Positions 1-7,873 of a stretch of 64,000 bases of DNA are shown here, in pieces (within the stretch, counting starts at the first letter, position 1; every line of letters starts with the position of its first letter). The stretch is from Luteimonas huabeiensis HB2 (GTDB lineage Bacteria > Pseudomonadota > Gammaproteobacteria > Xanthomonadales > Xanthomonadaceae), in contig NZ_JAAN01000005.1 of assembly GCF_000559025.1 (NCBI RefSeq), forward strand, positions 62,001 to 126,000. The letters are read 5' to 3'. Both the position numbers and the translations under genes were made by a program. The notes under the pieces are model-generated. The model saw only the letters and a program-made list of their open reading frames with translations, did no database searches and was not told where the DNA came from.

Positions 1-969
1 ACCCGCAACGGGCGCGGCGACTACGCGACGATCGCCGATCCGGAAGGCGGCGAATTCAACCAGGCGCTGCTGCGCCACGACGGCGGCTACGGCAGCGTGG
101 CCGTGGGGCGCCAGCGCATCGTGCTCGGCAACCAGCGCTTCGTCGGCGGCGTGGCCTGGCGCCAGAACGAGCAGACCTACGACGGCGTCCAGCTGCAGCT
201 CGCGCCGGCCGATGGCCTGCGCTTCACCTACGCCTTCGTCGACCGGGTCAACACCATCTTCGGTCCCGAGGATCGACGCACCGCGACCGCCGCCAACCGG
301 TCCGACATCGACGGCGACAGCCATCTGTTCGACCTGCGCTACGAGGCGTCGCCCGCGTTGTCGCTGGCCGCCTACCACTACCGGCTCGACCTCGACAACG
401 CCGCGGTGAGCCCCGGCGCGCCGCTGGGCACGCTGTCCAGCCGGACCACGGGCGCGCGCCTGGGCGGCGCCTGGCGCAGCCTGTCCTACGCGGCGGAATA
501 CGCCCGGCAGACCGAAGGCGCCGGCAATCCGTGGACGCTCGACAGCGACTACCGCCTGCTCGAACTCGGCTACGCGGTGCGCCAGGCCAAGTTCACCGCC
601 GGCTACGAGGCGCTGGGCGGCGGCACCGGCGCGGGCAACCGCGCCTTCCAGACGCCGCTGGCCACCAAGCACGCGTTCCAGGGCTGGGCCGACGTCTTCC
701 TGACCACCCCGGCCGATGGCGTCGTGGATCGCTATCTCGGCGCCAGCGCGCCGCTGGCGGGCGGCACCGTGCAGGCGTGGTACCACGACTTCGTGCCCGA
801 GCGCGGCGGCGGCGACTATGGGCACGAGCTCGACCTCTCCTACGCCCGCGCCATTCCCGGCGTCCAGGGCCTGACCGGCCTGCTCAAGTACGCGCGCTAC
901 GCCTCCGACGACCGCACCCGCAGCGTCGATACCGAGAAGTTCTGGCTGCAGCTGCAGTACGCCTACTGA
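1..969 (+). CDS. Alginate-export/porin-like outer membrane protein (5' end outside window)
   Basis: Open from the first base, so the N-terminus and any signal peptide lie outside the window; 322 residues plus a TGA stop are present. The protein is rich in alternating aromatic and polar residues, with repeated short strands and a terminal aromatic (ends Gln-Tyr-Ala-Tyr), typical of an outer-membrane beta-barrel. The strand pattern and the phrase GRQRIVLGNQRFVGGVAWRQ resemble the alginate-export (AlgE-like) family often annotated in Xanthomonadaceae. This is a family-level call; substrate unknown. The next gene (nrdD) starts about 130 bases later behind an FNR-type box, so the two are probably separate transcription units. 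Confidence 0.7.
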   Translation, partial: TRNGRGDYATIADPEGGEFNQALLRHDGGYGSVAVGRQRIVLGNQRFVGGVAWRQNEQTYDGVQLQLAPADGLRFTYAFVDRVNTIFGPEDRRTATAANRSDIDGDSHLFDLRYEASPALSLAAYHYRLDLDNAAVSPGAPLGTLSSRTTGARLGGAWRSLSYAAEYARQTEGAGNPWTLDSDYRLLELGYAVRQAKFTAGYEALGGGTGAGNRAFQTPLATKHAFQGWADVFLTTPADGVVDRYLGASAPLAGGTVQAWYHDFVPERGGGDYGHELDLSYARAIPGVQGLTGLLKYARYASDDRTRSVDTEKFWLQLQYAY

Positions 970-1027
970 CCCGCCGCGCCGCCCGGCACGCCCGGATTTC
1001 CGTGCGCGCCGGACGGTTGGCCTTCGC

Positions 1028-1041
1028 TTGACCCAGGTCAA
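1028..1041 (+). promoter_or_regulatory. FNR/Anr-type box upstream of nrdD
   Basis: TTGACCCAGGTCAA is a perfect inverted repeat (TTGAC-N4-GTCAA) matching the FNR/CRP-family consensus TTGAT-N4-ATCAA. Its centre is 64 bases before the preferred nrdD start. A class II position (-41.5) would put transcription start near 1076, which fits activation of an anaerobic enzyme. Confidence 0.75.
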
Positions 1042-1098
1042 TCCACATCTTGTGCTTTTGCATCAGCATTCCCACAACATCTTGTGTCGGGGACTGGC

Positions 1099-2862
1099 AT
1101 GCGGAGCGATGGATTCACGGCGCGATCCCTGGGCGGCGGCCGGGCGGCGGGGCCTCTCGTCGATCCGGTCGCCTCGATCGGCGAGTACTTGAGCCGCGCC
1201 GACTGGCGGGTCAACGCCAACGCCAACCAGGGCTACTCGCTGGGCGGGCTGATCCTGAACGTCTCCGGCAAGGTCACCGCCAACTACTGGCTCTCGCACG
1301 TCTACCCGCCCGAGATCGGCCGCGCCCACCGCGAGGGCGACCTGCACATCCACGACCTGGACATGCTCTCCGGCTACTGCGCCGGCTGGTCGCTGCGCAC
1401 CCTGCTGCACGAGGGGCTCAACGGGGTGCCGAACCGGGTCGAGGCGTCGCCGCCGCGGCACTTCTCCTCGGCCATCGGCCAGATCGTCAACTTCCTGGGC
1501 ACGCTGCAGAACGAATGGGCCGGCGCCCAGGCGTTCTCCTCGTTCGACACCTACATGGCGCCGTTCGTGCGCAAGGACGCGCTGTCCTACGACCAGGTGC
1601 GGCAGGGCATCCAGGAGCTGATCTACAACCTCAACGTGCCCTCGCGCTGGGGCACGCAGACGCCCTTCACCAATCTCACCTTCGACTGGGTGTGCCCGCC
1701 CGACCTGCGCGCGCAGCGGCCGTGCATCGGCGGCGAGGAGATGCCCTTCGCCTACGGCGAGCTGCAGGCCGAGATGGACGCGATCAACCGCGCCTACATC
1801 GAGGTCATGAGCGCCGGCGACGCCCGCGGCCGGGTGTTCACCTTCCCGATCCCGACCTACAACATCACGTCCGATTTTCCCTGGGAGTCGGAGAACGCGC
1901 AGCGGCTGTTCGACATGACCGCCAAGTACGGGCTGCCGTACTTCCAGAACTTCATCAATTCCGAACTCGACCCCGGGATGATCCGCTCGATGTGCTGCCG
2001 CCTGCAGCTCGACCTGCGCGAGCTGCTCAAGCGCGGCAACGGCCTGTTCGGCAGCGCCGAGCAGACCGGCAGCCTCGGCGTGGTGACGATCAACTGCGCG
2101 CGCCTGGGCTATCTGCACCGTGGCGACGAGGCGGCGCTGTTCGCGCGCCTGGACGAGCTGCTGGAGCTGGGCCGGCGCAGCCTGGAGATCAAGCGCGAGA
2201 CGATCCAGCGCCTGATCGACGAGGGCCTGTTCCCGTACACCAAGCGCTATCTGGGCACGCTGCGCAACCACTTCTCGACGCTGGGGGTGAACGGCGTCAA
2301 CGAGGCGATCCGGAACTTCACAGGCGACGCCCACGACATCGCCAGCGACTGGGGCCACGCGTTCGCGCTGCGCCTGCTCGACCACGTCCGCGCGCGGATG
2401 GTCGAGTTCCAGGAGCGCACCGGCCATCTCTACAACCTCGAAGCCACGCCGGCCGAGGGCACCACCTACCGCTTCGCCAAGGAGGACCGGCGGCGCTGGC
2501 CCGGCATCCTGCAGGCCGGCACCGACCAGCAGCCGTACTACACCAACTCCACCCAGCTGCCGGTCGGCTTCACCGACGATCCGTTCGAGGCGCTGGAGCG
2601 ACAGGAGGCGCTGCAGTCGCGCTACACCGGCGGCACCGTGCTGCACCTGTACATGGGCGAACGGCTCTCCAGCGGCGCGGCCTGCCGCGACCTGGTCCGG
2701 CGCGCGCTGAGCCGGTTCCGGCTGCCCTACGTCACGGTGACGCCCACGTTCTCGATCTGCCCCGTGCACGGCTACCTCTCCGGCGAGCACGTCTTCTGCC
2801 CGCGCTGCGACGCCGAGCGGCTCGCCGCCCGGCGCGAGGCCGCGCGCCCCGGCGCCGCCTAG
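1099..2862 (+). CDS. nrdD: Anaerobic (class III) ribonucleoside-triphosphate reductase, large chain lacking the glycyl-radical tail
   Basis: Reduces ribonucleotides to deoxyribonucleotides without oxygen, using a glycyl radical. Seen: the N-terminal region with HIHDLDMLSGYCAGW, the active-site stretch MCCRLQLDLRELL, INCARLGYL, and a C-terminal zinc site (CPVHGYL...CPRC), after which the chain ends about 17 residues later at a TAG. The family normally continues into a glycyl-radical motif (RVxGY). Here that motif is absent and is encoded by the next small gene. The ATG at 1099 is preferred; an in-frame GTG at 1084 would add five residues. The gene lies behind an FNR-type box and is followed by the radical-domain gene and nrdG. 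About 587 residues; identification is secure, the split is the oddity. Confidence 0.92.
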   Translation: MRSDGFTARSLGGGRAAGPLVDPVASIGEYLSRADWRVNANANQGYSLGGLILNVSGKVTANYWLSHVYPPEIGRAHREGDLHIHDLDMLSGYCAGWSLRTLLHEGLNGVPNRVEASPPRHFSSAIGQIVNFLGTLQNEWAGAQAFSSFDTYMAPFVRKDALSYDQVRQGIQELIYNLNVPSRWGTQTPFTNLTFDWVCPPDLRAQRPCIGGEEMPFAYGELQAEMDAINRAYIEVMSAGDARGRVFTFPIPTYNITSDFPWESENAQRLFDMTAKYGLPYFQNFINSELDPGMIRSMCCRLQLDLRELLKRGNGLFGSAEQTGSLGVVTINCARLGYLHRGDEAALFARLDELLELGRRSLEIKRETIQRLIDEGLFPYTKRYLGTLRNHFSTLGVNGVNEAIRNFTGDAHDIASDWGHAFALRLLDHVRARMVEFQERTGHLYNLEATPAEGTTYRFAKEDRRRWPGILQAGTDQQPYYTNSTQLPVGFTDDPFEALERQEALQSRYTGGTVLHLYMGERLSSGAACRDLVRRALSRFRLPYVTVTPTFSICPVHGYLSGEHVFCPRCDAERLAARREAARPGAA

Positions 2863-2882
2863 CGCGCCGGTCCGACTTTCCC

Positions 2883-2900
2883 GCCGGCCGCATGGCCGGC
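2883..2900 (+). other. Intercistronic stem-loop between nrdD and the glycyl-radical gene
   Basis: GCCGGCC-GCAT-GGCCGGC forms a 7-bp perfect stem with a 4-base loop, 20 bases after the nrdD stop and just before a strong GAGGAG ribosome-binding site. No T-tract follows, so it is unlikely to be a terminator. It could stabilise or process the mRNA and so set the ratio of the two proteins. Confidence 0.5.
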
Positions 2901-2928
2901 TCCCGCCCGACCCAACGAGGAGATGCAG

Positions 2929-3111
2929 ATGCGACACGACGACCACGACACCCTGCCCGACGACGAGCGCCAGCGCTGCGAGGTGTGGACCCGGGTGATG
3001 GGCTACCACCGCCCGGTATCCAGCTTCAACCTCGGCAAGCGCGGCGAGCATGCCGAACGCCGCTTCTTCGCCGAGCCCGCGGCGGCGCGCGCGGTGCCGC
3101 GCGCGGCATGA
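2929..3111 (+). CDS. Stand-alone glycyl-radical domain of class III ribonucleotide reductase
   Basis: A 60-residue protein containing CEVWTRVMGYHRPVSSFN, the motif that normally ends NrdD; the Gly of RVMGY is the expected radical site. The start at 2929 is chosen because GAGGAG (2917-2922) is six bases upstream; the ATG at 2923 abuts that site. It lies in the same reading frame as nrdD, with 20 sense codons between the nrdD TAG (2860-2862) and base 2923. Its TGA overlaps the nrdG ATG (ATGA at 3108-3111), implying coupled translation with the activase. Inferred role: it docks on the truncated NrdD and carries the radical, like a permanent version of the YfiD spare-part principle. Family known; behaviour as a separate subunit inferred. 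Confidence 0.85.
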   Translation: MRHDDHDTLPDDERQRCEVWTRVMGYHRPVSSFNLGKRGEHAERRFFAEPAAARAVPRAA

Positions 3112-3773
3112 TCCGCATCGGCGGCATGACGCCGGTGACCTCGATCGATTTCCCCGACCGCCTGGCGGCGGTGCTGTTCCTGCAGGGCTGCCCGTGGCGC
3201 TGCGGCTACTGTCACAACCCCGCGCTGCTGCCGGCGCGCGGCGGGGAGGCGATCGCCTGGACGCAGGTCGAGGCGTTCCTGCGCCGCCGCCGCGGCCTGC
3301 TCGACGGGGTGGTGTTCTCCGGCGGAGAACCCACCCTGCAACCGGCGCTGCCGCAGGCCGCGGCGCGCGTGCGCGCGCTGGGCTTCGAGGCCGCGTTGCA
3401 CACCGGCGGCATGTACCCGGCGCGGCTGGCCGCGCTGCTGCCGCTGCTGGACTGGGTGGGGCTGGACGTCAAGGCGCCGGCGTCGCGCTACGACGCCATC
3501 ACCGGCGTGCGCGGCAGCGCCGCCAGGGTTGGCACCTCGCTGCGGCAGGTGCTCGACAGCGGCATCGCCTACGAATGCCGCACCACCTGGCACCCGGGGC
3601 TGTACCCCGAGGACGAACTGCAGCGGCTGGCCGACGGCCTCGCCGCGCAGGGCGTGCGCCACTGGGCGCTGCAGGAATGCCGGAGCGCATCGCTGCCGGC
3701 GACGGGCTGGGCGCTGCGCGATCCGGCGGCGCTGGGCGCGCGCTTCGAGCGCTTCGTGGTGCGGCGCGCCTGA
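3108..3773 (+). CDS. nrdG: Anaerobic ribonucleoside-triphosphate reductase activating protein (radical SAM)
   Basis: Radical-SAM activase that installs the glycyl radical on class III ribonucleotide reductase using S-adenosylmethionine and a 4Fe-4S cluster. The signature CPWRCGYC (CX3CX2C) is near residue 29, preceded by the usual VTSIDFPDRLAAVLFLQGC lead and followed by the SGGEP SAM-binding motif. 221 residues, normal for the family. The ATG overlaps the stop of the glycyl-radical gene by four bases, so substrate domain and activase are co-translated. It ends shortly before a hairpin shared with the convergent azurin gene. Confidence 0.93.
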   Translation: MIRIGGMTPVTSIDFPDRLAAVLFLQGCPWRCGYCHNPALLPARGGEAIAWTQVEAFLRRRRGLLDGVVFSGGEPTLQPALPQAAARVRALGFEAALHTGGMYPARLAALLPLLDWVGLDVKAPASRYDAITGVRGSAARVGTSLRQVLDSGIAYECRTTWHPGLYPEDELQRLADGLAAQGVRHWALQECRSASLPATGWALRDPAALGARFERFVVRRA

Positions 3774-3775
3774 AC

Positions 3776-3804
3776 GAAAAAGCCCGCCGGCGAAGCCGGC
3801 GGGC
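3776..3804 (-). terminator. Intrinsic terminator of the azurin gene
   Basis: GCCCGCCGGC-GAA-GCCGGCGGGC forms a 10-bp perfect stem. On the minus strand it is followed by a run of five T (AAAAA at 3777-3781 on the plus strand). It serves azurin and may also limit nrdG read-through. Confidence 0.85.
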
Positions 3805-3832
3805 CCGAGCTGCGGACGTGCCGCGCGGCAGG

Positions 3833-4288
3833 TCAGGGCGTGACGACGAGCGTGCCGCGCATGATCGCCGAGTGGCCGGGGAACGAGCAGAAGAACACGT
3901 AGTCGCCGCCGGCGCGCAGGCGGTTGCCCGGGAAGGTGACCCGAGTGGTCGCGCCGCCGCCGATCACGTCGGTGTGCGCGATCACGCGCTGGTCGTCGGC
4001 GGGCACGTACTTGCCGGCCGCGCCGGCGGCGATGCCGGCCTGGGCCACCGCGGCGGCATCGCCGCTGGCGGTGATCACCACGTTGTGGCCCATCGCGGTC
4101 GCCGGCAGCGCGCCCGTGTGCTTGAGCTCGACGGTGACCGTCCGGCAGCCGGCCGAGACGGTCGCGCTCTTCTTGTCGAACTGCATGCGGTCGTTGCCTT
4201 CGAGGCTGATCGTGCAGTTGTCGCTGGCCTGGGCGGCGCCGGCGGCGCACAGCAGGGCGAGGCCGAGCAGGGTGGAGAGGGTCTTCAT
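3833..4288 (-). CDS. azu: Azurin, periplasmic blue copper electron carrier
   Basis: Type 1 copper protein that shuttles electrons in the periplasm. A cleavable signal peptide of about 20 residues ends near AAQA. The mature part starts with the azurin-like DNCTISLEGNDRMQF. Copper ligands are visible as the His of MGHNVVI and the Cys, His and Met of FFCSFPGHSAIMRG. 151 residues as precursor, normal length. The gene is preceded by an FNR-type box (4360-4373) and followed by a strong terminator, so it is monocistronic. Neighbouring cbb3 oxidase and cytochrome c peroxidase genes are plausible electron acceptors (inference). Confidence 0.96.
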   Translation of the reverse strand: MKTLSTLLGLALLCAAGAAQASDNCTISLEGNDRMQFDKKSATVSAGCRTVTVELKHTGALPATAMGHNVVITASGDAAAVAQAGIAAGAAGKYVPADDQRVIAHTDVIGGGATTRVTFPGNRLRAGGDYVFFCSFPGHSAIMRGTLVVTP

Positions 4289-4359
4289 CTGGAACTCCTT
4301 GCGGATGGAACGGGAAAGAGGGTGTGCGCGTAGTGTGTGCGCGCACGGCCGCGACCGAA

Positions 4360-4373
4360 TTGATCTGGATCAT
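4360..4373 (-). promoter_or_regulatory. FNR/Anr-type box upstream of azurin
   Basis: On the plus strand TTGATCTGGATCAT (TTGAT-N4-ATCAT), one mismatch from the FNR consensus. The centre is about 78 bases before the azurin ATG, leaving a plausible leader of about 37 bases if bound at -41.5. Confidence 0.65.
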
Positions 4374-4441
4374 TACCCGGCGTGAAGGCATTCCGGCGTT
4401 TGGTCGCCGCTCAGCGTTCGCGGGCGCCCCGCCGGCCCGGG

Positions 4442-5170
4442 CTACCGCGCCGGCAGCGGCGCCGGCAGGCAGCCCAGCGCGGCCAGCGGGCCGTGCAGCG
4501 CCGGCACGTGCATCAGCCAGGGGGCGGCGAGGGAGAGCACGCCCGCGGCCAGCACCAGCGCGCCGGCGGCGGCGCGCCAGCCCGGGCGCTGCAGCCAGCG
4601 GCCCAGGCGCGCGCCCGACCAGGTCAGCGGCAGCATCACCGGCAGGGTGCCGAGCCCGAACGCGGCCATGGTCAGCGCGCCGTTGCGCGCGTCGGCCTGC
4701 AGCCAGGCGATGGTCAGCAGGCCCAGGCTGAGACCGCAGGGCAGCCAGCCCCACAGCACGCCCAGCAGGATGCGCTTGGGCGCGGAATCGGCCGGCAGCA
4801 GCGGCCGCTGCAGCGGCCGCAGCCACTGCCACAGCCGCTGGCCGGGGCCGGAGAGCCCGGCACGGCGCACGCCCAGCAGGCGCAGCGCCAGCACCACCAG
4901 CGCCGCACCTACCAGCATGCGTAGGCCGACCGCCAGCCAGGGCGAGCGCGCCACCGCCAGCAGGCCGTCGCCGACGACGCCGGCGGCCGCGCCGGCCAGC
5001 ACGTAGCCGGCCACGCGGCCGAGGTTGACCTGCCAGGCCAGCGGCCAGCCGCCGCGCGGCGACAGCGCCGAGAAGCCGGTGGCGATGCCGCCGCACATCG
5101 CCGCGCAGTGCACGCCGCCCAGCAGGCCGGCCAGCAGCGCGGCCAGCAGCACCGGCCAGTCAACCGGCAT
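4442..5170 (-). CDS. TauE/SafE (UreH-like) family membrane protein, last gene of the cco cluster
   Basis: Integral membrane protein of about 242 residues with six or so hydrophobic segments. The first segment holds GGVHCAAMCGG, the Cys/His/Met-containing signature of the UreH/DsbD-like transporter group, and a central segment holds LPCG. Genes of this type commonly sit directly after ccoS, and a role in metal or copper handling for cbb3 assembly is suspected but not proven; the name sulfite exporter is only a family label. The ATG at 5170 starts 11 bases inside ccoS, implying translational coupling. The upstream in-frame extension is Gln/Pro-rich and antisense to a repeat in ccoS, so it was not used. 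Confidence 0.8.
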   Translation of the reverse strand: MPVDWPVLLAALLAGLLGGVHCAAMCGGIATGFSALSPRGGWPLAWQVNLGRVAGYVLAGAAAGVVGDGLLAVARSPWLAVGLRMLVGAALVVLALRLLGVRRAGLSGPGQRLWQWLRPLQRPLLPADSAPKRILLGVLWGWLPCGLSLGLLTIAWLQADARNGALTMAAFGLGTLPVMLPLTWSGARLGRWLQRPGWRAAAGALVLAAGVLSLAAPWLMHVPALHGPLAALGCLPAPLPAR

Positions 5171-5456
5171 CGCGCGGCGCTCCCCCCGCGTCGCTGGCGG
5201 TTGCGGTTGCGGTTGCGTCAGCGGTTGCGTCCGCGTCTGCGGACGCGTCGCTCGTGGCATCCGCGGATGGCGCGGGACCGGCCTGCGTTCGCTTCGGCGC
5301 GCGTTCGGCGCGCGGGCCGTCCTCGTCCACCAGCACGTCGAGCGCCGGGGTGTCGAGGTCGTCGAACTGGCCGCGCCGCACCGCCCAGACGAAGGCGCCG
5401 ATCGCCACGCCCAGCAGCAGCAGGCTGATCGGCAGCAGCAACAGCAGGCTTCTCAT
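5160..5456 (-). CDS. ccoS: cbb3-type cytochrome oxidase assembly protein CcoS
   Basis: Small membrane protein needed for haem and copper cofactor insertion into cbb3 oxidase. Residues 1-30 form one hydrophobic helix followed by the family signature AVRRGQFDDLDTPA. Classical CcoS proteins are about 50-70 residues; this one has 98 because of a low-complexity Ala/Asp/Thr/Ser tail from about residue 60, encoded by a degenerate GCGGTT-like hexamer repeat. The start overlaps the ccoI stop (ATGA) and its end overlaps the TauE/SafE-like gene. Confidence 0.9.
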   Translation of the reverse strand: MRSLLLLLPISLLLLGVAIGAFVWAVRRGQFDDLDTPALDVLVDEDGPRAERAPKRTQAGPAPSADATSDASADADATADATATATASDAGGAPRDAG

Positions 5457-7873
5457 CGCGGCGCGGCCGGCACGGCGGCGGTGGACCCGGCGCCGGTCGC
5501 GCGCGGCGCCGGCAGCGGCGGCGTGCGCGCCAGCCGCAGCGCATTGGCGGTCACCGCCAGCGAGGACAGCGCCATGCCCAGCGCCGCCAGCCAGGGCGTG
5601 ACCAGCCCGGCGGCGGCCACCGGCAGCGCGACCAGGTTGTAGCCCAGCGCCCAGGCCAGGTTCTGGCGGATCACCCGGCGCGTGCGCCGCGCCACCGCGA
5701 CCGCGGCGGGAATGCGCATGAGCGAGCCGCCGGTGAGCACCAGGTCGGCGGCGCGCTGCGCCAGCGACGCGCCCTCGCCCATGGCGATCGACACGTCGGC
5801 GCCGGCCAGCACCGGGGCGTCGTTGAGGCCGTCGCCGACCATCGCCACCACGCGGCCGCGCGCCTGCAGCGCGTGCACGCGGTCGAGCTTGTCCTGCGGG
5901 CTCTGGCGCGCGTGCGCGTCGTCCAGGCCGAGGCGCTGCGCGAAGGCCGCCACCCGCGCCGGCGCGTCGCCGCTGGCCAGGTGCAGCGCCAGCCCCTGCG
6001 CGCGCAGCGCGTCGAGCGCTTGCGGTGCGTCCTCGCGGATCCGCTCGCGCAGCACGAAGCGGGCCGCCGGCTGCGCGCCGTCGCCCAGCCAGACGTCCTC
6101 GTCGGGCGCGCGCGCGGCGGCGAAGCGCGCCTGGCCGAGCCGCCAGCGGCGCCCGCCGACCGTGCCTTCCACGCCTTCGCCCGGCACGCTGCGGACCTCG
6201 CGCGCATCGGCCGCGGCCGGCGCGTCGGCGAAGGCCGCGGCCAGCGGGTGGCGGCTGTCGCGCTGCAGCGCGGCGGCGATGGCCAGCGCCTCGTCGGCGC
6301 GCATGCCCGGCTCCGGCACCACCCGTTCCAGTTGCGCGCGGGCGTCGCCGAGGGTGCCGGTCTTGTCGAACACCACGTCGGTGGCCGCGGCCAGCGTGTC
6401 CAGCGCGCCGTCGCGGGTGGCCAGCACGCCGAGCCGGGCCAGGGTGCCGTGCGCGGTCGCCAGCGCCGTGGGCACCGCCAGCGACAGCGCGCAGGGGCAA
6501 CTGATGACCAGCAGGGCCAGGGTGACCTCGAACGCGCGCGAAGGATCGTAGAGCCGCCAGCCGACGTAGACCGCGATCGCGGCCACCAGCAGCGTCGCCA
6601 CGAAGCGGCTGCCGACGCGGTCGGCCGCGCGCGCCAGCGCCGGGCGCTGCGCCTGCGCCTGCTCCACCAGCCGGGTGAGCTGCGAGAGCCGGGTGGCGCT
6701 GCCGACGCCGGTCACCGCGATCCGCGCCGGGCGCTCGCGGCAGACGCTGCCGGCGTGCACGGTCTCGCCGGCCTGGCGCAGCACCGGGCTGGATTCGCCG
6801 GTCAGCAGCGATTCCTCGAACGCCACCGGCCCGTCCAGCAGGCGGCCGTCGGCGGGCACGGTCTCGCCCGCGGCAACGCAGGCGGTGTCGCCCACGGCCA
6901 GGCGCGCGATGGCCACCGTCTCGCGCTCGCCGTCGGCGCGCTCGCGGGTGGCGAACGCCGGCCGCGCCCGCGCCAGCGCATCGACCTGGGCGCTGGCGGC
7001 GTTGCGCGCGCGCTGCTCCAGCATGCGCGCGGCCAGCAGCAGGAACACGAACATCACCGCGGCGTCGTACCAGACGTGCGGCCCGCCGCGGATCGTCTCG
7101 ACCAGGCTGGCGAAGTAGGCCAGCAGGGTGGAGGTGGCGATCAGCGTGTCCATGCCGACGTGGCGGGCGCGCAGCTCGCGCCAGCAGCCGATCAGGAACG
7201 GCCAGCCGGAATAGAACACCACCGGGGTGGACAGCACGAAGGTCAGCCAGCGCAGCACGTCGCGGGTCGCGGTGGGCATGCTGGCGTCGAAATCCAGGTA
7301 CAGCGCCTCGGCCAGCATCATCGCCTGCATCGCGCCCAGGCCGGCCACGCCCAGGCGCAGCAGCCAGCGCCGGCGTTCGCGGGCGCGCTCGCGCTCGCGC
7401 GCATCCCCGGCGGCCAGGTACGGCCGGTAGCCCAGCGCCAGGAGGCGGCGCAGGATCGCCGACAGCGGCGCGCGCGCCGGGTCCCAGGCGATGCGGATGC
7501 GGCCGGTGACAGCGTTGGCGACGACCTCGGACACGCCGTCCTCGCGCGACAGCGCGCGGTCGATCAGCCAGGCGCAGGCGGCGCAGCGCATGCCGTCGGT
7601 GAGCAGGGTGATGCGCAGGCCGCCGTCGAAGGCGTGGGCGTGCTCGGCCAGTACCTCGTCGCGGTCCCACACCGACAGGTCCACGGCGTCGGTGCCCACC
7701 GGCGCCGGCAGCGCGCTGCGCAGGCGGTAGTAGTCGTCCAGGCGCGCATCGCGGATCCAGGCCGCCGCGGCCTCGCAGCCGGCGCAGCAGAACGCCGCGC
7801 CGTCGGCGCCGATCGTCGCCGTGCCGGCGATGGGCTCGCCGCAGTGGAAGCAGGTGCGCGCGGCGGTCGCCAT
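5453..7873 (-). CDS. ccoI: Copper-transporting P1B-type ATPase CcoI for cbb3 oxidase assembly
   Basis: Copper-export ATPase supplying the CuB site of cbb3 oxidase. 806 residues. The N-terminus has an extra cysteine-rich metal site (CFHCGEP and CCAGCE), typical of FixI/CcoI, followed by a heavy-metal-associated domain with MRCAACAW. Transmembrane ion site ISCPCALSLAVP (CPC), phosphorylation site DKTGTLGD, and hinge GDGLNDAPVLAGADVSIAMG. It lies between ccoH and ccoS in the usual order; its stop overlaps the ccoS start. Probably transcribed with the whole cco operon. Confidence 0.95.
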   Translation of the reverse strand: MATAARTCFHCGEPIAGTATIGADGAAFCCAGCEAAAAWIRDARLDDYYRLRSALPAPVGTDAVDLSVWDRDEVLAEHAHAFDGGLRITLLTDGMRCAACAWLIDRALSREDGVSEVVANAVTGRIRIAWDPARAPLSAILRRLLALGYRPYLAAGDARERERARERRRWLLRLGVAGLGAMQAMMLAEALYLDFDASMPTATRDVLRWLTFVLSTPVVFYSGWPFLIGCWRELRARHVGMDTLIATSTLLAYFASLVETIRGGPHVWYDAAVMFVFLLLAARMLEQRARNAASAQVDALARARPAFATRERADGERETVAIARLAVGDTACVAAGETVPADGRLLDGPVAFEESLLTGESSPVLRQAGETVHAGSVCRERPARIAVTGVGSATRLSQLTRLVEQAQAQRPALARAADRVGSRFVATLLVAAIAVYVGWRLYDPSRAFEVTLALLVISCPCALSLAVPTALATAHGTLARLGVLATRDGALDTLAAATDVVFDKTGTLGDARAQLERVVPEPGMRADEALAIAAALQRDSRHPLAAAFADAPAAADAREVRSVPGEGVEGTVGGRRWRLGQARFAAARAPDEDVWLGDGAQPAARFVLRERIREDAPQALDALRAQGLALHLASGDAPARVAAFAQRLGLDDAHARQSPQDKLDRVHALQARGRVVAMVGDGLNDAPVLAGADVSIAMGEGASLAQRAADLVLTGGSLMRIPAAVAVARRTRRVIRQNLAWALGYNLVALPVAAAGLVTPWLAALGMALSSLAVTANALRLARTPPLPAPRATGAGSTAAVPAAPR

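Follow-up and report, generated by a model that had tools for sequence, protein, structure and literature searches.

Oxygen kills glycyl-radical enzymes by cleavage at the radical glycine. In the class III (anaerobic) ribonucleotide reductases of P. copri and T. maritima, the zinc site and the radical loop of NrdD lie on one chain, and the structures of such fused enzymes show a glycine loop that dips into the barrel and a radical domain that is mobile, perhaps as a rigid body (PMC11226230, PMC4493059). A radical glycine on a small autonomous protein is known from YfiD/GrcA and phage T4 Y06I, which dock onto a large partner and are activated by the partner's activase; spare parts of this kind are described as validated solely for pyruvate formate-lyase (PFL), and others may exist (PMC8683613). 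The split class II reductase NrdJa/NrdJb has a C-terminal functional domain on a separate gene (PMC5704485, PMC9669993), and phage nrdD can be split into several open reading frames (ORFs) by introns or inteins, mostly mobile elements, some of them shown to be spliced (PMC3653736, PMC12363816). Here, we analyze a window of 64,000 nucleotides from Luteimonas huabeiensis HB2 (contig NZ_JAAN01000005.1, positions 62,001 to 126,000), in which the radical loop of NrdD is encoded by a small gene between nrdD and nrdG. Very probably, the locus specifies a three-component class III ribonucleotide reductase made of NrdD, a 60-residue radical protein, and NrdG.

NrdD and the small radical gene in Luteimonas huabeiensis

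The features of the locus, in coordinates of the whole window, are as follows.

1028..1041, + strand: box TTGACCCAGGTCAA upstream of nrdD, which we take to be FNR/Anr/Dnr-like (sole match within positions 1-6000)
1099..2862, + strand: nrdD, core subunit of 587 aa without radical loop (ORF list, profile matches, and motif scan; stop TAG 2860-2862)
1987..2001, + strand: double-cysteine SMCCR motif of the finger-loop type in NrdD (motif scan, residue 297)
2758..2808, + strand: zinc-site half of the glycyl-radical domain, CPVH...CPRC, which stays on NrdD (motifs at residues 554 and 567)
2863..2928, + strand: spacer of 66 nt from the NrdD stop to the preferred ATG of the small gene
2917..2922, + strand: Shine-Dalgarno (SD) sequence GAGGAG of the small gene
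2929..3111, + strand: small glycyl-radical subunit gene, 60 aa (alternative ATG 2923)
3001..3003, + strand: predicted radical glycine codon, Gly25 in RVMGY (from its alignment with the last part of the NRDD profile)
3108..3773, + strand: nrdG, radical S-adenosylmethionine (SAM) activase of the NrdG2 type (TIGR02495, 196.3 bits; cut-off 131.15)

The window NrdD ends 17 residues after its last zinc cysteine, residue 570 of 587, just as the original prediction had read it from the letters alone. The radical glycine motif is absent from this chain and present on the next gene, and the radical-loop pattern has a single occurrence across the six frames of the window. Coordinates and motifs also agree with the further claim that this motif sits on its own 60-residue gene, preceded by GAGGAG and coupled to nrdG by an ATGA overlap, in which the small-gene stop (3111) overlaps the nrdG ATG at 3108. 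We prefer ATG 2929 over ATG 2923 because the latter abuts the SD sequence and the former has 6-nt spacing. SMCCR, CPVH, and CPRC were identified in the window NrdD as motifs, from sequence rather than structure, and the meaning of the finger-loop cysteine motif is taken from PMC9669993 and PMC4493059.

The two proteins tile one profile. On NF006126 (684 positions), NrdD spans 98-651 and the small protein spans 648-682; on Pfam NRDD (562 positions), they span 2-530 and 531-562, respectively. NrdD scores 1033.6 bits against NF006126 (cut-off 548), beginning at position 98 and so lacking the N-terminal part of longer relatives, and the small ORF scores 30.5 bits against NRDD, above the gathering score of 26.2. 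Since the radical motif lies on the next gene, it is the pair, and not the NrdD chain alone, that fits the class III family. With Pfam at E up to 1, NRDD is the sole match of the window small protein, with no PFL-type glycyl-radical family, and four viral copies of the protein likewise match NRDD only. A PDB sequence search with the small protein returned one chance-level match (E 0.27), and an NrdD search of the window's own genome gave a single match, the window locus itself. The small gene is under purifying selection, with a ratio of nonsynonymous to synonymous differences (pN/pS) of 0.17 over the conserved 34 codons of nine related loci.

Split and fused layouts among cellular relatives

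We compared 91 loci, comprising 80 genome-contig loci (the best 80 of at least 589 candidates encoding a relative), seven same-family loci, and four annotated-plasmid loci; the set contains the window's own locus and counts one genome twice (L007/L015). Classified by script, 82 loci are split (L073 included), eight are fused, and one (L057) ends with its contig before any motif. Small proteins of the split loci have 49-79 aa (median, 63; starts picked by SD), and their genes begin between -41 and 298 nt from the NrdD stop (median, 30.5). A C-E-V/I-W sequence is kept in all 82, and a radical-SAM CxxxCxxC-type motif follows the small gene in 78. Relative to nrdD, the small gene lies in frame 0, 1, or 2 in 30, 27, and 25 loci, a random distribution, and therefore constrained readthrough or frameshifting is not what makes one chain. 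Six Pseudomonas or Stutzerimonas loci in the set are split. The split is the norm within the NrdD clade of the window and not a peculiarity of the HB2 genome, and the radical domain is, as had been proposed, a separate conserved gene.

Among 398 genomes of the window's phylum, NF006126 exceeds its cut-off in 16, the small-protein alignment (E ≤1e-5) has matches in 16, and the two sets are identical; the radical peptide is a separate ORF in 13 of them and lies within the NrdD frame in three (G224, G308, and G570). These counts refer to one match in each of the 16 genomes, with up to 16 candidates scored per genome, so that extra copies could be missed. In the same family as the window, NrdD is found in 7 of 198 genomes, and all seven are split; an uninterrupted close relative, which the original prediction had named as grounds for giving up its reading, was not among them, and given the relatives a sequencing error is very unlikely. 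The Actinomycetota, the phylum of G589 (locus L047, Actinotalea), have 7 of 198 genomes over the NF006126 cut-off, and the same seven carry the radical motif inside a large frame. On the G504 contig, nrdD is about 9 kb away from the small gene, which has remained beside the activase gene nrdG.

In a tree of 108 classified rows (93 split and 15 fused), the unconstrained topology requires five changes; the deep rows are fused, and some fused rows are nested among split ones, which would imply re-fusion. The approximately unbiased test does not reject a history with one split and no re-fusion (p 0.17, or 0.46 without L103), and therefore we claim no count of split events within the window's NrdD clade. 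The tree left out 25 duplicate or partial loci and loci that were below 350 bits or started past residue 30; fused status was assigned by hand to L146 and L147, L057 was left unclassified, and L093 and L103 were kept as split.

Separate radical ORFs also occur in the Thermodesulfobacteriota, to which G597 belongs (locus L054, a Geobacteraceae metagenome-assembled genome). There, the joint alignment A3 has matches in 50 of 198 genomes, of which 17 lie in open frames of <180 aa (counted from the table) and the rest in large frames. Nine checked examples (G858, G1014, G894, G930, G1024, G999, G872, G970, and G1022) have an NrdD tail that ends after the zinc region and then a separate short ORF, and a profile search found the NrdD core beside the short ORFs of G909, G944, and G972 too. 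Small-protein N termini and NrdD tails vary among these splits. In G1014, G894, and G930, and at L275-L277 and L310 of one split lineage, both the NrdD tail and the small-protein N terminus resemble charged heptad helices, a possible docking pair. The NrdD open frames of G909, G944, and G972 are 1076-1574 aa long with gaps between profile matches, which suggests putative inteins inside nrdD, and L274 (G597) has two near-alike radical-subunit ORFs about 1.4 kb apart. Three further genomes, G915, G948, and G977, combine a fused NrdD (1-560 of 562) with a separate NRDD-type radical-end protein of about 100 aa on another contig (L335 in G915, L338 in G948, and L337 in G977). The L337 protein has 103 aa and passes the NRDD cut-off only. 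These separate proteins are candidate true spare parts of NrdD.

The split also stands in annotated records. Plasmid pHG1 of Cupriavidus necator H16 (L088) encodes an NrdD of 676 aa (76.19 kDa) and, 142 nt after nrdD and in a different frame, a small gene of 66 aa; NrdDG is stated to be essential for complete denitrification in this strain (PMC2864759). The RefSeq annotation separates both genes on pHG1 and on Sulfuricurvum and Shinella plasmids, and on several plasmids it gives the name nrdD to the small gene and lists the large subunit separately. P. aeruginosa papers write of nrdDG (PMC4860495, PMC5645315), and our literature search, with most subscription papers outside its reach, turned up no account of an NrdD whose radical domain is detached, so that the small gene is already annotated yet, as far as found, undiscussed. 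Gly650 of the 676-aa pHG1 NrdD is the HGY glycine of the zinc site, and the 66-aa gene encodes the glycine of RVMGY. A 1999 paper on the C. necator enzyme reportedly gave a 76.2-kDa NrdD and glycine 650; if so, the radical site was earlier assigned to the wrong gene.

As for expression signals, 27 of 81 split loci have the pattern of the FNR-like box no more than 700 nt upstream of where the NrdD match begins. None of the 81 has it in the 700 nt that follow this point, although the control stretch is coding sequence and hence not like-for-like. SD duplex energies in the window are -8.9 for the small gene, -5.7 for nrdD, and -5.3 for nrdG. Across 81 loci, by a crude proxy that takes the strongest-SD start for each gene, the small gene is stronger than nrdD in 42, weaker in 37, and equal in 2 (Wilcoxon p 0.78), and it is stronger than nrdG in 59 of 74. 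No Rfam family reaches its gathering score between 900 and 3900 of the window. Downstream of nrdG on the - strand, translations show a small secreted cupredoxin-like protein (3833-4288) and a large P-type-ATPase-like ORF (5453-7873), which would fit a low-oxygen gene neighborhood.

Viral copies of the small protein

Relatives of the small-protein alignment are found on 147 viral contigs, and we analyzed the best 80 of the 147 (L173-L252). All 80 have a short ORF keeping the radical glycine, with 63 distinct cores. In flanks of up to 4 kb around these 80, tblastn found neither NrdD nor NrdG at a significant level (best E, 0.025 and 0.19, respectively); at least 3 kb of upstream sequence is available in 56. 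An NRDD scan of 50 of the 80 whole viral records, up to 108 kb, found no NrdD core and only the profile end, apart from a second weak stretch in G822 (486-538, 11.5 bits), and NrdG2 was not found in the 44 viral records scanned for it, the shortest records being left out. As a control, the same viral collection holds 53 contigs with an NrdD core, which by script are 30 fused, 15 split with a radical ORF, 6 with a core and no motif, and 2 truncated. On manual count the split cores are 14 of 53, L358 being a frame break inside the core; some of the six motif-less cores (e.g., L388) look fused with a motif missed by the pattern, and L340 ends with its contig. Viral contigs thus show fused, split, and radical-only states.

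Neighbors of the small gene were scanned with PHROGs at 20 of the 80 loci: eight have head, tail, or packaging genes, four have replication genes, L252 has an integrase, L190 has a reverse transcriptase, and six have none of these. The radical gene comes after terminase and portal in L191, and in L229 it has a replication-initiation gene on one side and a helicase on the other. The best PHROG for six small proteins, that of the window and five viral ones, is PHROG 4132, of unknown function. A 40-row alignment (29 viral rows chosen from the 80 and 11 cellular rows) has 16 invariant columns; at the conserved cysteine, 6 of all 80 viral copies depart from the pattern. Viral pN/pS is 0.46 over 349 pairs, a crude value with pS near saturation. 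L228, L233, L211, L213, L202, and L191 have a cysteine-rich N-terminal extension before the ER..CEVW-like segment. Among INPHARED phages, one viral protein as a query gave no match at E 1e-3, and the window protein gave four weak matches only (E 0.2-9).

Proposed mechanism, alternatives, and known systems

From these genomes, we infer that the small protein is an obligatory glycyl-radical subunit that binds NrdD in trans, bears the radical on Gly25, and can be exchanged after oxygen cleavage. NrdD would contribute the barrel in which catalysis takes place, along with the double-cysteine loop and the zinc-site half of the C-terminal domain, and the 60-residue protein would give the radical loop. 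The activase NrdG would generate the glycyl radical on Gly25; the small protein would dock on the zinc region and barrel of NrdD, its loop entering the barrel like the tethered loop of fused enzymes, and the radical would be passed on to start reduction, with catalysis as in those enzymes. We favor action in trans because the frame is random, one copy is unlinked (G504), splits occur in other NrdD lineages, and viral copies occur without a core; this genomic evidence points the same way as the original prediction, which had the small protein bound by NrdD and activated by NrdG. For L083, a Cellulomonas relative that is fused by nature, a structure was predicted from its sequence and 57 other unchanged rows. 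The model has a mean predicted local distance difference test (pLDDT) score of 79 and 70-84 over the radical segment, and its closest structures are solved NrdD chains, 4u3e first (template modeling score, 0.74), which supports a common fold for the modeled chain.

Several points weigh against this mechanism. The model is of a fused relative and not of a two-chain complex, and its residues 285-309, the double-cysteine loop, have pLDDT <50, so that a meeting of glycine and cysteine is not shown. In T. maritima NrdD, the SCCR motif is far from the active site (PMC4493059), which leaves the next radical-bearing residue unsettled for double-cysteine enzymes, and the window has SMCCR. The exact start of so short an ORF is predicted, as are, from genomes, the production of the small protein, its binding to NrdD, and its radical. 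Some genome records, like the viral ones, may be fragmentary. We also considered whether the small subunit is overproduced, as its turnover would lead one to expect, and rejected this because its SD energies are no different from those of nrdD.

Two alternatives would return the locus to a single chain. That a sequencing error or recent nonsense mutation broke a fused nrdD, leaving a pseudogene or what is really one chain, is hardly credible: the window small ORF does happen to be in frame 0 relative to NrdD after the TAG, but 82 of 91 loci are split with differing stops, gaps, and frames, RefSeq separates the genes on the pHG1, Sulfuricurvum, and Shinella plasmids, and the small gene is under purifying selection. 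Scarcely less improbable is that programmed stop readthrough, frameshifting, or splicing fuses both ORFs into one chain. The random frame, the gaps ranging from overlap to 298 nt, the SD and start that the window small gene has for itself, and the 9 kb between the genes in G504 all speak against it. A group I intron would not fit into the 66-nt spacer. Rfam finds no intron there, although introns or inteins are frequent in phage nrdD genes (PMC3653736, PMC12363816).

Other alternatives grant the small protein its independence and differ about its role. Its main use could be as a spare part for repair after oxygen damage, like YfiD/GrcA for PFL, with NrdD working without it. The shared logic of an autonomous glycyl-radical protein (PMC8683613) and the fused NrdD plus separate radical protein of G915, G948, and G977, in another phylum, favor such a role, which we nevertheless think very unlikely for the window: NrdD of the split clade is without a radical loop, making the small protein indispensable if the enzyme is class III, and the small protein has no PFL-type Pfam match. 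The likeness to YfiD/GrcA suggested in the original prediction accordingly stands in logic and not in family or role, the protein matching NRDD and being predicted as obligatory rather than as a spare beside an intact enzyme. For the viral copies, we give appreciable though lesser credence to their being inhibitors, or having a partner core outside the recovered contigs, instead of being subunits for host NrdD. The records may be fragments, hosts are not assigned, PHROG 4132 is without known function, and 14 of 53 core-bearing viral contigs are split with a radical ORF nearby; against this, the radical glycine is kept in 80 of 80, 16 columns are invariant in the 40-row alignment, and no core is found in 50 whole records of up to 108 kb.

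The glycine is where oxygen breaks a glycyl-radical chain (PMC3019208, PMC8683613), and a separate loop would therefore confine the loss to a 60-residue peptide, with an advantage in repair that would follow from the layout. Small radical proteins alone on phage contigs suggest that the oxygen-vulnerable part can be exchanged, and phages may also supply the radical subunit. We regard as evenly poised the proposal of an exchangeable subunit that bacteria swap after oxygen damage and whose phage copies dock on host NrdD, are activated by host NrdG, and feed phage DNA synthesis. The viral stand-alone subunit is its boldest part; if true, a radical cofactor protein is shared across genomes. If the three-component enzyme is real, it is a genetically separable natural system for the loading, activation, and loss of a radical loop, which are hard to study in fused enzymes. 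Annotation would be corrected as well, since RefSeq labels the small gene nrdD and two-gene descriptions as nrdDG miss the third component, and candidates for spare parts of ribonucleotide reductase, viral ones included, are now at hand.

Compared with known systems, the locus is like class III NrdD/NrdG (NF006126/PRK08270, Pfam NRDD) in that the catalytic core, double-cysteine motif, zinc site, radical loop, and NrdG-type activase are all present, and it is unlike NrdD of P. copri and T. maritima in that the chain is cut between the zinc site and the radical loop. It resembles NrdJa/NrdJb in encoding a C-terminal domain of a ribonucleotide reductase separately, but NrdJb is a cysteine-rich reducing domain of class II with no radical site. 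Unlike phage nrdD split by introns or inteins, it has no insert, and the break falls at a fixed domain border with own starts. Like YfiD/GrcA and T4 Y06I, it has the radical glycine on a small autonomous protein; in contrast to GrcA, which is PFL-type and substitutes for the damaged end of a complete enzyme, one that has a radical domain itself, the small protein here is NrdD-type, and its large subunit ends before the radical domain and has no radical loop of its own.

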